The translations under genes were made by a program, and so were the position numbers. Below the pieces are notes generated by a model that saw only the letters and a list, made by a program, of their open reading frames with translations, had not been told where the DNA came from and searched no databases. This document shows, piece after piece, positions 24,927 through 51,870 of a stretch of 64,000 nt of DNA. How positions within the stretch are numbered: position 1 is the stretch's first letter; each line of letters begins with the position of its first letter. The DNA is from Eubacterium sp. (GTDB lineage: Bacteria; Bacillota; Clostridia; Lachnospirales; Lachnospiraceae), in NCBI GenBank assembly GCA_017406925.1, contig JAFQXO010000002.1:49071-113070 (forward strand). The letters are read 5' to 3'.

Positions 24927-24999
24927 AATAAAAGATCCTCCTTTGATGTTACATCGCCAGAGAACCTGTATGCATGCGCAATAATCTTACGCATAATAT

Positions 25000-25082
25000 A
25001 CGCTTCCTTACGTCGGTACTAACCGAATCAAGTTATGAGGGATGAGATAAAAATCTCTCTCAGCCTAGGCACCCCTAGCGAT
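25000..25082 (-). ncRNA. TPP riboswitch (THI element)
   Basis: The minus strand reads CTAGGGGTGCC-TAGGCTGAGAGAG, then ATCCCTCATAACTTGATTCGGTTAGTACC-GACGTAAGGAAGCG, which carries the conserved GGGGTGC, CTGAGA, CTGAT-like and CGTAAGGAA boxes of the thi element. It starts 14 bases after the HAD stop and ends about 75 bases before thiT. The segment 24930-24999 contains a short ATGCG/CGCAT hairpin before the thiT ribosome site and may be the expression platform. Confidence 0.95.
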
Positions 25083-25095
25083 ATTATTAAATTAG

Positions 25096-34942: not shown

Positions 34943-35196
34943 AAAAAATCCCTTAACAGGAAAAACCTGTTAAGGGACGAATAATTCCGCGGTACCACCC
35001 TCGTTTTCATATAAATATATGAACACTTAATTCTGCTAACGTGCAGTATACGTCATTCATTACTATCTTCGTGAATGCAGCTCGCGTGGGAATTTCAACT
35101 TTCATCTGAACCTGGAGAACTTTCCAGCCTCGAGTTCTCTTCTCTAGTCAGGAAGATGAACGTCTACTATGCACGGTCATAGCCTTTTTCCATATC
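34943..35196 (-). ncRNA. T-box riboswitch leader of pheST
   Basis: The conserved T-box bulge AGGGTGGTACCGCGG is at 34987-35001 (minus strand), and the terminator hairpin TCCCTTAACAGG with its complement plus A/T tail is at 34943-34977. Stem I with GAACTC and GCTGGA-like elements lies at about 35080-35180. The likely specifier is TTC (Phe) in the GAAATTCCC segment near 35092, inferred. When tRNA-Phe is uncharged the antiterminator forms and pheST-queA are transcribed. This also accounts for most of the 369 bases between pheS and yihY. Confidence 0.95.
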
Positions 35197-36154: not shown

Positions 36155-36188
36155 AAAGAACGAACAATCTAATGTCCGTTCTTTTTTT
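36155..36188. terminator. Bidirectional terminator between yihY and the 6S RNA
   Basis: AAAGAACG and its complement (36155-36162 with 36177-36184) form an 8-base-pair stem with a 14-base loop and a run of T on the plus strand. On the minus strand it is followed by TTTTCTT, so it can also end the 6S transcript. Confidence 0.85.
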
Positions 36189-36369
36189 ATAACCGTACTG
36201 CCAGTCTGCGATTTGATCCTAGCTTTCGCCAGGTGGGTTTCCGCATCTAAAGTTTAGCCTTCCACTGACATGAGGCTTGGCTGCTCTTTAGAGATGTAAG
36301 AATCCCTTTTCATCAATGTAGGTTCAAATGTTACAGTCTATAACAGCCGGCCAAAGTTATTAACTTTGT
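36187..36369 (-). ncRNA. ssrS: 6S RNA
   Basis: A 183-base non-coding stretch fits 6S RNA architecture on the minus strand. The ends pair (CCG-GCTGTTA with TGGCAGT-CGG), followed by the AUUUGA-ACC / GGA-UCAAAU stem and a central bubble flanked by CATCTCTAAAG and CTTTAGATG. An AGCCT/AGGCT apical hairpin closes the structure. GGAAACCCACCTGGCG on the 3' side of the bubble resembles the conserved 6S strand of Firmicutes. A sigma-A promoter (TTGAAC, 17 bases, TATAAT) and the flanking terminator bound it. 6S RNA sequesters housekeeping RNA polymerase. Identity rests on structure and motifs, not on a covariance search. Confidence 0.78.
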
Positions 36370-48057: not shown

Positions 48058-48085
48058 AAATAATGCTCCTTATACTTTTATAAAC

Positions 48086-48171
48086 GGAGAAGGTGGGATT
48101 CGAACCCACGTGCCCAAAAAGGACAACCGCATTTCGAGTGCGGCTCGTTATGACCACTTCGATACTTCTCC
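48086..48171 (-). tRNA. tRNA-Ser (anticodon CGA)
   Basis: The minus strand folds as a class II tRNA: acceptor GGAGAAG with CTTCTCC, anticodon stem GCCGCA with TGCGGT around CTCGAAA, giving anticodon CGA, a long variable arm (TGTCCTTTTTGGGCA) and a T arm GTGGGTTCGAATCCCAC. The 3' CCA is not encoded. CGA reads UCG serine codons. Confidence 0.96.
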
Positions 48172-48185
48172 AAACAACATTAAAT

Positions 48186-48218: not shown

Positions 48219-49397
48219 CTAAATCTTAAGATCGTCTATATTATTTACTATTTCGATAATGCGTTCTTTACATGTCTCAATAAGCTTCTGACCTTGTTCA
48301 GTATCTGATTCACGTCTGATACTTCTACGCATTATACGGACGAGGCCAATGAGTTCTGCTTTCATCGAAACTTCCTCTATTCGCGCATCGTCATCTGTGT
48401 CTAGATAGTATTCAAGTGATTTTCTCCAAATATCTTTGGTCACATCATATGAAATGCCGATAAAATCTTCGACTTTTTTAGGATCTACGATTCCAAAGCC
48501 CACATATGCATTGTACATTGATGCAAGTTCAAAAATAGGATCGCCTAGACATAGTGTATCCATGTCAATCAAAAGCGCCTCATCGTTTTGCATCATGATA
48601 TTCTTAAGATGGAAATCGCCGTGCATAAGGTTAGTAGACTCTTCCACATCTTCAACCATCTTCAACAACTTTTCGTATGTTTCAGTAGGCAAATACTCTT
48701 CCAAAAACTTAACCCAACCAATAACAACTTCTTTTTCGTTAGGCATCTCACCCTCTTTCAAAGTAGTATCATGAATCTGTTTTAGAAGATTGGCCGACAT
48801 TTTAACATACTTATCAAAATTGTCGCTGTCTTTTACAATAAGCTTGGCAAAAGATTCAGCATTTAAAAGTTCAAATACTGAGCCATAACCATCGCCAACT
48901 TTAACTACATCGTAAGGTATCGCTGTAGGGACTCCGAGCACGAATGCCTTACGCGCAAGTTCACGTTCTCTATGAATCTCTGGTAATGAGTCAGGGTTCT
49001 TATAAACCTTGATGATAGTCTCAGGATCAATACGATAAACTTTACCATTTGATCCTTGTCCTATAACTTCACATCCCTCTACATCAAACTTGCGGTACGC
49101 TTTTTTTATTGTCATCATCTCTGAGAATCCAGTCATCTCGAAAATCTCGTAGACATCTGAACTCACATTAATAATTTCAAATGTTGGTTCTGCTTTTCTT
49201 GTGCGAAGAACCACTCTCAATCCAGCACTAGAAATGTATTCCAGTTCTGATGCATCCATAGTAAGTGATCCATCTGGATTTTCTTCTCTGATAGCTTTTA
49301 GGGCGTTTTCCACATCTGTTGCATTAGTCGAATCTATGCGACCAGTAATATGAACGATAACTCCCCCATCTTTCACTTCGCCTCTTACATTAGCCAT
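48219..49397 (-). CDS. STAS domain fused to a phosphotransferase (APH-like kinase)
   Basis: 392 residues. Residues 1-100 are a STAS domain, with YISSAGLRVVL carrying the likely phospho-Ser (S56 or S57). About residues 105-392 form an aminoglycoside-phosphotransferase-like kinase: GQGSNGKVYRI, IIKVYK (Lys130), Brenner motif HGDFHLKN (259-266) and IDMD (277-280). It starts inside the end of the HD gene (8-base overlap). By inference the STAS domain is regulated by phosphorylation and the kinase part acts on a small molecule or protein; neither substrate is known. Confidence 0.82.
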   Translation of the reverse strand: MANVRGEVKDGGVIVHITGRIDSTNATDVENALKAIREENPDGSLTMDASELEYISSAGLRVVLRTRKAEPTFEIINVSSDVYEIFEMTGFSEMMTIKKAYRKFDVEGCEVIGQGSNGKVYRIDPETIIKVYKNPDSLPEIHRERELARKAFVLGVPTAIPYDVVKVGDGYGSVFELLNAESFAKLIVKDSDNFDKYVKMSANLLKQIHDTTLKEGEMPNEKEVVIGWVKFLEEYLPTETYEKLLKMVEDVEESTNLMHGDFHLKNIMMQNDEALLIDMDTLCLGDPIFELASMYNAYVGFGIVDPKKVEDFIGISYDVTKDIWRKSLEYYLDTDDDARIEEVSMKAELIGLVRIMRRSIRRESDTEQGQKLIETCKERIIEIVNNIDDLKI

Positions 49398-49968
49398 TTA
49401 TTTCACTCTCCTTAAAAATAATTGATAATAGTTGTGTATATTCTATATAAGATAAAGTATCCTTCAAATCCGAAAGGTACTCTGCAATCGTCTCGTAGTA
49501 CCACTGTTGCTTCTTGGCATCTTTTTGGTTAAATGTATCCCACATTCTCTCACCATACTTTTCATGAAGTATATACAGCGATCTGATATTCGATAGTTTA
49601 TCCGCCATCCACAAAACTTTAACTCCAGGATCTGTCGCATTTTTCAAAAACTCTAACGACTCTTCCTTTCGAATTTGCCATGTCTCTTCTGGTGGCAAAT
49701 CTGGTCTCTTATTCTCCGTTTCAGACGAGACAAGTTTAGCAACGCGCTCACCAAATCTTTCTTTAATCTCTTCATTGGTGGTATCTGTGTCTTCTACAGT
49801 ATCATGCAGCAAAGCCGCAATGAGCACTTCCTCGTCATCCGTCATCTTACTAGCAATAGTTGCCACTTCGAGCGGATGCATAATATACGGAATGCTTTCA
49901 CGCCTTCGTACCTGGCCACTATGACGTTCAGTTGCGAACTCTATCGCTTCATCTAACTTTTTACTCAT
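49390..49968 (-). CDS. HD-domain hydrolase of the RelA/SpoT type (small alarmone hydrolase-like)
   Basis: 192 residues with the MESH1/RelA-HD pattern: ATERHSGQVRRRESIPYIMHPLEVA (His31), AALLHDTVEDT (His55, Asp56) and WMADKLSNIRS (Asp123), the four metal ligands, then SDLKD. The (p)ppGpp synthetase domain is absent. Likely function is hydrolysis of a ppGpp-like alarmone. It lies 9 bases after the SpoIIE gene and overlaps the STAS gene. Confidence 0.8.
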   Translation of the reverse strand: MSKKLDEAIEFATERHSGQVRRRESIPYIMHPLEVATIASKMTDDEEVLIAALLHDTVEDTDTTNEEIKERFGERVAKLVSSETENKRPDLPPEETWQIRKEESLEFLKNATDPGVKVLWMADKLSNIRSLYILHEKYGERMWDTFNQKDAKKQQWYYETIAEYLSDLKDTLSYIEYTQLLSIIFKESEING

Positions 49969-49977
49969 CCATAACTC

Positions 49978-51870
49978 CTAATCTAAAACCTTACTGATTG
50001 TAAGGATATTTTTACCATCCTCATATTTGTAAGTGACTTTGTCCATAGTCTGAAGAACCATATGTATTCCTAAGCCACCAATCTTCCTTTCCTCAGCAGA
50101 AAGAGAAATATCTGGTTGCTCATTCTCGAGTGGATCAAACGGCATGCCTGAATCAGTAAACTTGACACGCACTTCGTTCATTTCTGGAACATACTTCACA
50201 GCTACTGTGATTTCTCCAACATGAGTACCGTATGCGTAATTGCAAACATTGACAAAAATCTCCTCAAGCGCGACTGTCATCTGCATTACATACTTTGGTG
50301 ATGCCTTCACAATGGCAAGCTGACTCTCAAGATACTCAACAGCCTCCGCAAGATGTGCATCTGTTGCTATAAAAGTTTTCTCTTCATAAACTAAAGTCTT
50401 TAAATAATCATTCATCTTAAACATAAGCATTGTTATATCATCAAACTGCTCTGCCTCTCCCGCAAACTCAGACACATCAGCCCTGAGACCTTTTAGAGTC
50501 TCTGTGGCGGTCATTCCTTTGTGCGCATTCAAATAGTTCATCATACGCTCAGTGCCATACAGTTCGTTGTTTTCATTATTAGCTTCAGTAACACCGTCCG
50601 TGTAAATCAAAAGCTCATCGCCAGGCTCAAGTTTAGTATTGAAATTGTCATACTGTAGTCCATCCATTCCGGCAAGAACAAATCCTGGTTTTCCATTATG
50701 TATTTCGAAATCTTTGTCTTTCTTTCTTATGATTGGTGGGTTGTGTCCTGCATTGGTGTAAACCACTCCACCATCTGTAAGATCTATAACTGCCATCCAC
50801 GCTGTTACGAAAAGTCCTTCCTCATTGCTTTCAGCAAGCATCTTGTTAGTTCTGGTAAACACCTCACCTGGAGAAAGATCAATCTCTGCATGGTTCTTAA
50901 TCAGTGTTCTAGTGATGACCATAACCATTGCCGCAGGGATACCCTTACCAGAAACATCTCCGATGACGACGGCAATATGTGTCTCATCTATCATAAAGAA
51001 ATCATAGAAATCTCCACCTACTTCCTTCGCCGGCTCCATAATTGCATAAAGATCAAACTCGGAATACTTTGGAAAAGGTGGAAATGTATTTGGTAAAATA
51101 TTTGCTTGAATGCTATTTGCAAGATTTAATTCAGAATGAATGCGTTCGTTGTTTCTTGTAATTTTGGCTTCGTCTAATATCATACGACGACCTCTGTTGG
51201 CAACATTCACACAAACAAACGCAACAATTGCAAATATTATAATACTAGGCAAATATCCTGATACTAATTCATCTTTTAAAAATGTAGTTGGATGAGGAAA
51301 TACATTTCTAACTGAATCATCCATCTCGCCTATGATTTTAATCATAGATCCTTTAGGTGGCATGATATTGTTAACGTCAAGCCATCCATACATAGTGGAT
51401 GTTACAGTACCAATCCCCATTAAGATGCCTGTAATCACGGATATAAAAATCGTCAACTTATTCGAATAATACAGAATAGATAGAATGGTTGGTATTACCA
51501 TAAACATCACTACTGCATAATTCACATAACCATATAAAATGGCACAATTTATAACCAAGCATGCTAAAAGCATAACCTTTACAAAGCGTCTTCTTCCTTT
51601 AAAAACCGAGTTGATAATAGCTGGCACTAAACAGAAAACAGCTGTTGTTAACACGATATAATCTATTGAAACGGTATCATCAGTCAACTCGATAATTCTA
51701 ACCTGATGAAGTATATAAATAACAATACTTGCCAAAAACAAAAGTATATCAATAAGGCCAATTACGTTATTGGCCAATACCTCATTTGTATAGAAAATAT
51801 CATCAGACTGAAGCCGATTCATCAGCCAATCATAGAATTTGGTTCTACGTTCTTCGTTTTTTTCATTCAT
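49978..51870 (-). CDS. Membrane SpoIIE-type PP2C phosphatase fused to an RsbW-like ATPase
   Basis: 630 residues: N-terminal membrane region of about six helices (33-225, in two groups with a loop at about 155-205), a short coiled coil (230-258), a PP2C (SpoIIE) phosphatase with GGDFYD at 285-290, GDVSGKG at 304-310 and LLIYTDGVTEA near 430, then an RsbW-like HATPase domain (about 495-630) with ALEEIFVNVCNYA, FTDSGMPFDP and GGLGIHMV. It unites a phosphatase and an anti-sigma-type kinase. The STAS protein encoded next to it is the natural substrate for both. Confidence 0.87.
   Translation of the reverse strand: MNEKNEERRTKFYDWLMNRLQSDDIFYTNEVLANNVIGLIDILLFLASIVIYILHQVRIIELTDDTVSIDYIVLTTAVFCLVPAIINSVFKGRRRFVKVMLLACLVINCAILYGYVNYAVVMFMVIPTILSILYYSNKLTIFISVITGILMGIGTVTSTMYGWLDVNNIMPPKGSMIKIIGEMDDSVRNVFPHPTTFLKDELVSGYLPSIIIFAIVAFVCVNVANRGRRMILDEAKITRNNERIHSELNLANSIQANILPNTFPPFPKYSEFDLYAIMEPAKEVGGDFYDFFMIDETHIAVVIGDVSGKGIPAAMVMVITRTLIKNHAEIDLSPGEVFTRTNKMLAESNEEGLFVTAWMAVIDLTDGGVVYTNAGHNPPIIRKKDKDFEIHNGKPGFVLAGMDGLQYDNFNTKLEPGDELLIYTDGVTEANNENNELYGTERMMNYLNAHKGMTATETLKGLRADVSEFAGEAEQFDDITMLMFKMNDYLKTLVYEEKTFIATDAHLAEAVEYLESQLAIVKASPKYVMQMTVALEEIFVNVCNYAYGTHVGEITVAVKYVPEMNEVRVKFTDSGMPFDPLENEQPDISLSAEERKIGGLGIHMVLQTMDKVTYKYEDGKNILTISKVLD

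Follow-up and report, generated by a model that had tools for sequence, protein, structure and literature searches.

Three coupled genes in a 64,000-nucleotide stretch of Eubacterium sp. DNA (Lachnospiraceae; assembly GCA_017406925.1, contig JAFQXO010000002.1), the whole of which we call the window, probably encode a partner-switching module. In this module, an RsbW-type ATPase domain (HATPase) and a PP2C phosphatase would set the phosphorylation of a STAS domain and so control the kinase attached to that domain, not a sigma factor, with an RSH-type HD protein as an optional co-worker. The evidence computed here consists of the gene set, its conservation, natural fusions, intact catalytic positions, folds and an inventory of the organism's own assembly. 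The genes are the following:

51870-49978, minus strand: gene 1, membrane PP2C/SpoIIE-type phosphatase with an RsbW/SpoIIAB-type HATPase (630 aa; Pfam)
49968-49390, minus strand: gene 2, stand-alone RSH-type HD domain protein, small alarmone hydrolase-like (192 aa; Pfam)
49397-48219, minus strand: gene 3, STAS domain (residues 1-100) with an APH-fold kinase (about 105-390) (392 aa; Pfam)

All three open reading frames lie on the minus strand where the original prediction had placed them, and the tight coupling that it described is confirmed by a gap of 9 bases between genes 1 and 2 and an overlap of 8 bases between genes 2 and 3. The stop of gene 1 sits within ATTAGGAG, AGGAG runs are present at both junctions, and the start of gene 3 is preceded by AAGGAG within gene 2. 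Pfam reproduces the proposed domain calls, namely SpoIIE (residues 296-486, E 5e-51) and HATPase_c_2 (502-627, E 1.5e-19) in gene 1, HD_4 (E 1.2e-23) in gene 2, and STAS (7-99, E 1.1e-11) and APH (111-298, E 1.1e-15) in gene 3. The description of the phosphatase as a membrane protein likewise agrees with seven hydropathy peaks N-terminal of the phosphatase domain, three of which overlap one another, giving about five distinct segments.

We checked HD, HATPase, PP2C, STAS and APH positions that we take to be the catalytic or functional positions of their families. In the STAS domain, S56 and S57 are identical in 81 of 81 STAS-APH proteins (window included), with Ser57 beginning helix 2 in the predicted model, so that the conserved serine expected at the start of this helix is present. 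The APH positions K130, E144, H259, D261, N266 and D278 are identical in the same 81 proteins and E146 in 74 of them; fold and catalytic residues together fit an APH-fold small-molecule kinase. The HATPase keeps E537 in 60 of 60 rows, N541 in 58 and D573 in 55, and has the N and G boxes of an RsbW/SpoIIAB-type serine kinase. Five metal-binding aspartates of the PP2C domain are kept in 42 of 43 rows, with one gap, and D290 in 34 of 43 (8 have N). All 47 module HD proteins, that of the window among them, share R21, H31, H55, D56, E59, D60, D123 and N127. According to the structure models, the HATPase and STAS folds are close to SpoIIAB/RsbW and to RsbV, respectively, and the fold lists for the APH domain are headed by small-molecule kinases (choline/ethanolamine, aminoglycoside, methylthioribose and aminopropanol kinases). 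These lists also contain LxmK, an APH-fold relative that presumably acts on a peptide, which lends something to the idea that the APH-fold domain acts on a protein, or that it has lost catalysis and serves as a regulated binding scaffold. We regard this as very unlikely, given the small-molecule kinases at the head of the lists and the Lys, Glu, HxD...N and IDxD positions kept throughout the 81 proteins.

The best named family for the APH part is TIGR02172 (NCBIfam), which all 54 rows of alignment A4 match, but the window scores 109.1 against a curated cut-off of 228.2 and the family carries no function; no paper naming it was found in the open-access literature searched. The APH tree has several rows on long branches. 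A reading of the unit as a defence system was rejected, PADLOC giving two weak matches, both to gene 3, and so was a plasmid-borne reading, as none of the 72,556 plasmid records searched matched at E 1e-10.

Judged by its sequence relatives, the three-gene unit is a conserved module. Among the 40 genomes of a genus search (own genome included; 22 others of the same genus), full-length STAS-APH is found in the own genome and in 8 of the 22 others. The original prediction would have been refuted by genes scattered in relatives; 7 of the 8 instead keep HATPase, HD and STAS-APH together, with ilvC and the small membrane gene ahead of HATPase, HD and STAS-APH in this order and leuC after them. One of these seven is a Lachnospira sp. 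UBA3790 contig. In the eighth (G016), STAS-APH lies on a contig of 8.4 kb that has no HATPase, HD or PP2C, and a row of PP2C, HATPase and STAS without APH is present elsewhere. We then consider a wider set, in which 84,980 species genomes were scanned with the STAS-APH alignment and the best 80 of 232 relatives were surveyed (7 are the same DNA as the seven genus relatives and 73 lie outside; one gene reached twice, L103 = L191, is counted once). By their titles these 80 are for the most part metagenome bins from rumen or gut that bear the names of Bacillota groups, with single bins titled Collinsella, Spirochaetaceae and Candidatus Colimorpha (Bacteroidota), for which mis-binning is possible. 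In whole-genome samples (own genome included), 35 of 299 family genomes and 5 of 398 phylum genomes have a match to the STAS-APH model at E 1e-25 or better, some of these matches being APH without STAS.

Counting neighbours within 4 kb on the same strand as STAS-APH, we observe HATPase at 56 of the 80 loci, HD at 46, PP2C at 40 and a free STAS at 35, with HD, HATPase or PP2C at 69. At the 56 loci with at least 2.6 kb on both sides the numbers are 45, 31, 35 and 26, with any of HD, HATPase and PP2C at 49. Without the seven genus relatives, the 73 other loci have HATPase at 49, HD at 39, PP2C at 40, free STAS at 35 and any of the first three at 62, and the 51 of these with at least 2.6 kb on both sides have 40, 26, 35, 26 and 44. 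Neighbour clustering returned no further family in seven or more of the 73 non-genus loci; the only others in at least seven loci were ilvC, ilvN, leuC, leuD, thrC and the small membrane gene, with members from the genus loci L131-L137 with or without the window, which indicates that the module parts stay together in otherwise different surroundings. Sixteen close relatives in the family sample (L102-L117, by eye, with no more than 1.5 kb of flank; L103 belongs to the best-80 set as well) show HATPase at 10, PP2C at 7 and HD at 5. The remoter STAS-APH genes, together with some APH genes lacking STAS (L238-L255), were inspected by eye without clustering; they have mixed surroundings and give no common hint of a substrate. 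Two of the more distant STAS-APH genes stand in tandem (L238:6233-8746), and genome G118 has four matches to the STAS-APH model.

Natural fusions join the same parts. Seven genes encode STAS-APH-HATPase on a single chain (L104, L110, L111, L112, L114, L229 and L103 = L191, the last cut by a contig end), one encodes HATPase-STAS-APH (L143), and HD-APH fusions without STAS occur in five genera (L219, L220, L221, L222 and L223), forming one clade in the HD tree and in the APH tree. Pfam agrees for all four fusions scanned (L104, L143, L219 and L222). An HD-STAS-APH protein (L218) is tentative, its STAS match being below the Pfam cut-offs.

With respect to gene 1, the original prediction had put the phosphatase and the RsbW-like kinase on one chain. 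This stands for the window but is not constant, the seven genus relatives having no phosphatase in the unit and a separate HATPase of 135-137 aa. Identity between the window and these relatives (L091-L097) is 63-65% for HD and 61-63% for STAS-APH against 41-42% for the HATPase (window 49978-50406), perhaps reflecting faster change or replacement of the HATPase, possibly tied to its fusion with the phosphatase. In the HATPase tree the window groups with the seven stand-alone genus HATPases (88/91, not starred), which tentatively favours loss or fission in the relatives over a new fusion in the window. We do not consider the fusion a novel feature, since no other form is as frequent among the loci (34 of 58 HATPase tree rows, the window being the 35th) and has a solved precedent in Rv1364c (3ke6), which aligns to residues 277-576 of gene 1. 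One stand-alone genus HATPase (L094:7187-7600) has, by eye, NGG at the G1 box where the others have DSG. The sensor part N-terminal of the phosphatase varies across loci, with mostly 2-4 hydropathy peaks in about 290-350 residues, 7-8 peaks in about 205-240 residues in the window, L152, L197 and L201, and 8-11 peaks in about 555-590 residues in L138, L140, L142 and L203; L138 has a 5TMR-LYT match, with Cache and HAMP matches below cut-off.

Gene 2 is an HD domain alone with no synthetase domain, as only HD_4/HD is found in Pfam and TIGR00691 is matched at 1-128 of 687. Its closest solved relative is Lmo0812 (4yf1, E 3e-26), and in its single RSH-type HD domain with catalytic positions kept it resembles small alarmone hydrolases of the Mesh1-L/RelH/Lmo0812 type. 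The original prediction counted an HD hydrolase as part of the unit, which holds for the 46 of 80 loci given above but is not a constant feature, as the 5 of 16 close relatives show. A tentative alternative, to which we give a minority weight, is that the partner switch controls STAS-APH while the HD protein shares no more than the transcript and hydrolyses (p)ppGpp independently. This would be in line with the absence of HD from 34 of the 80 loci and from 11 of the 16 close relatives, and with its wider spread, HD relatives being present in 96 of 299 family genomes versus 35 for the STAS-APH model. Nine lone-HD loci, chosen for having no known strong STAS-APH match, have no partner gene near the HD gene. 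RelH of Corynebacterium glutamicum (RelHCg), moreover, works as a single-domain hydrolase that hydrolyses ppGpp, and coupling or fusion to an APH kinase, the feature seen here, does not figure in the portion of that account drawn on here (PMC5954133).

On the other side, HD adjoins or overlaps STAS-APH at the 46 loci, and in five genera HD is fused to APH. Across 47 loci (window included) the spacing runs from an overlap of 152 bases to 21 bases apart, always on the same strand, the larger overlaps depending on the choice of the first start codon. Since a same-strand HD is found at 46 of 80 loci, and at 39 of 73 without the genus relatives, the coupling is more than chance. The nine lone HD proteins also cluster apart from most module HDs, though their cluster (94/92, not starred) also takes in L218 and a RelA row on a long branch, with the module HDs around it; as this RelA outgroup row (L087) is placed among the lone HDs, the rooting of the HD tree is unsure. 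By domain content the gene 2-type HD family is joined to several other functions, HD domains of the same kind being fused to an MscS channel (L257:1047-2483) and to a Macro domain (L256:900-2549).

A further idea, in our judgement improbable, is that the APH kinase and the RSH-type HD hydrolase are an opposing pair acting on one nucleotide-like messenger, where the kinase would make or cap it, the hydrolase would remove it and the partner switch would set the balance. The HD-APH fusions in five genera, the tentative HD-STAS-APH protein and the coupled gene pairs are the traces that such a pair would be expected to leave. As proof of a kinase/hydrolase pair the fusions are weakened by a changed HDxxED motif in two of the five (L219-L223), and by the sub-cut-off STAS of L218, which by eye reads IDFSGLR in place of ISSAGLR in the others. 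If true, the opposing pair would be a signalling nucleotide system under partner-switch control. The own assembly has a long RSH (759-residue frame), and (p)ppGpp synthesis is thus likely available in the host.

We next weigh the ordinary anti-sigma pathway, in which the HATPase would act as an anti-sigma factor that is antagonised by the STAS domain, with the APH domain and the HD gene as passengers. The likeness of the HATPase and STAS folds to SpoIIAB/RsbW and RsbV speaks for it, as do weak profile matches to RsbW models and the sub-threshold sigma-70 matches in relatives given below, but the gene 1 HATPase scores 30.6 against the RsbW equivalog cut-off of 145, and against the other RsbW or SpoIIAB equivalog cut-offs 27.6 (155) and 17.1 (135), all too low. 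A passenger role for the APH domain is also disfavoured by the six catalytic positions invariant in 81 of 81 proteins. As the original prediction had noted, no sigma factor lies near the unit; the whole of the own assembly (1.28 Mb, 84% complete) gives a single sigma-70 region-2 match, in a 532-residue frame, and the relatives give one match above cut-off in four of seven and none in three. No cognate alternative sigma factor was found in this 84%-complete assembly, with sub-threshold candidates in six of the seven relatives (a sigma-70 region-2 match in a frame of 215-224 residues). On the over-cut-off counts a sigma-factor output was set aside as the main reading, and we hold it to be highly improbable. 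The remaining inventory comes close to a closed set of parts: one PF01740 STAS match at E 0.1 or better, in gene 3 (the search covered PF01740 and not STAS_2, PF13466), one HATPase_c_2 match above cut-off, in gene 1, and a second PP2C frame elsewhere.

Several observations weigh against the module as we read it. The phosphatase is missing from the unit in the seven nearest relatives, and the window HATPase is less similar to theirs than the HD and STAS-APH proteins are (41-42% versus 61-65%). HATPase is lacking within the neighbour range at 24 of the 80 loci, and all four partner types at 10, of which 6 have at least 2.6 kb on both sides; one of the 10 (L204) has a PP2C-HATPase gene on the opposite strand. 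Among the 81 and 47 rows from which residues were counted, 8 are genus rows, mostly near-copies, and the structure models give domain folds only. As to the inventory, an assembly that is 84% complete may let genes escape, and the three relatives without a sigma-70 match above cut-off indicate that genes are being missed in such assemblies. The own assembly also has one sub-threshold HATPase_c_2 match, and the 215-224 residue frames in the relatives could be an alternative sigma factor.

The sequence evidence nevertheless supports a partner-switching-type unit with the STAS domain as likely phospho-target and the attached phosphotransferase as output, as the original prediction proposed. Beyond this, our inferences concern phosphorylation and docking, how the kinase is controlled, what HD does and which way the switch runs. 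A membrane signal would set the PP2C domain via the variable membrane sensor part. The RsbW-type HATPase domain would phosphorylate the STAS serine at the start of helix 2 (Ser56/Ser57), and the membrane PP2C domain on the HATPase chain would remove the phosphate. The phospho-state of STAS may then decide whether the HATPase holds it, and hence where or whether the tethered APH-fold kinase is active on its small-molecule substrate. Made from the same unit, the HD protein is an optional part that probably acts in the same small-molecule response, most likely one of a nucleotide or alarmone, and may remove an alarmone or the kinase product. At the 35 of 80 loci with an extra free STAS, this protein could compete for the HATPase in a true partner exchange; the window assembly shows none.

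The surroundings of the unit include the following features:

52337-51879, minus strand: Peptidase_A24-like membrane protein (152 aa; Pfam Peptidase_A24, E 1.1e-6)
48084..48172, minus strand: tRNA-Ser(CGA), directly downstream and a boundary of the unit (ARAGORN)
52415-52382: terminator-like hairpin between the Peptidase_A24-like gene and ilvC

The Peptidase_A24-like gene, overlooked in the original prediction, is a fourth gene whose end lies 8 bases upstream of gene 1. All seven genus relatives have a gene of 131-144 aa at this position, one family among themselves, but only the small gene of L137 matches a profile of the window protein. The best promoter-like site of the region (51906-51878; TTTAAA, 17, TATAAT; 10 of 12 positions) leaves just 7 bases ahead of the phosphatase gene's ATG, and a transcript starting from it would have almost no leader; such sites barely exceed chance in this region (19 versus 15.6 in shuffles). 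Elsewhere in the window the minus strand carries a T-box leader, a thiamine pyrophosphate (TPP) riboswitch and a 6S RNA (34970-35189, 24988-25086 and 36186-36356).

To our knowledge, partner switching is best known for sigma-factor control, and cases with an enzyme as output are few. Rv1364c of Mycobacterium tuberculosis, which like gene 1 has phosphatase and RsbW-type domains on one chain, belongs to a sigma-factor pathway and carries its own STAS domain on that chain, whereas the STAS domain here is on another chain, with the kinase. SiaABC-SiaD and HsbA-HsbD of Pseudomonas aeruginosa are partner switches with an enzyme output, in which a PP2C phosphatase, a kinase and an anti-sigma-antagonist-like protein control the enzyme by protein contact, as far as the part of the source used here describes them (PMC7647112); their output is a separate diguanylate cyclase, whereas here an APH-fold kinase is covalently fused to STAS and an RSH-type HD is often in the unit. 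SypE-SypA, in the excerpt used, is another partner switch with an enzyme or non-sigma output (PMC8256260). In CapS, a STAS domain is fused to a non-sigma effector, and the GHKL kinase CapK phosphorylates a conserved serine on the second helix of this STAS domain, and VapK-VapS is a predicted complex. The effectors there are a DNA-binding winged helix-turn-helix (wHTH) domain and a PIN-domain RNase, and the portion of the account used mentions no PP2C phosphatase, APH kinase or HD hydrolase (PMC13373217). We found no account of a STAS/APH-fold kinase fusion that has an RSH-type HD protein as partner in the open-access literature searched (subscription papers were not covered), and as non-sigma partner switches are known, we take the STAS-APH/HD combination as a new variant of them.

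What sets this variant apart is the covalent link between an antagonist domain and an APH-fold kinase, in a family present in many genome bins with gut and rumen titles, often beside an alarmone-type hydrolase, and here in a host whose 84%-complete assembly shows no alternative sigma-70 factor to serve. If our reading is true, this would be a compact module, a single chain (STAS-kinase-HATPase) in some genomes, for phosphorylation control of a metabolic kinase, and it would point to a metabolite or messenger whose phosphorylation by these bacteria answers a membrane signal.

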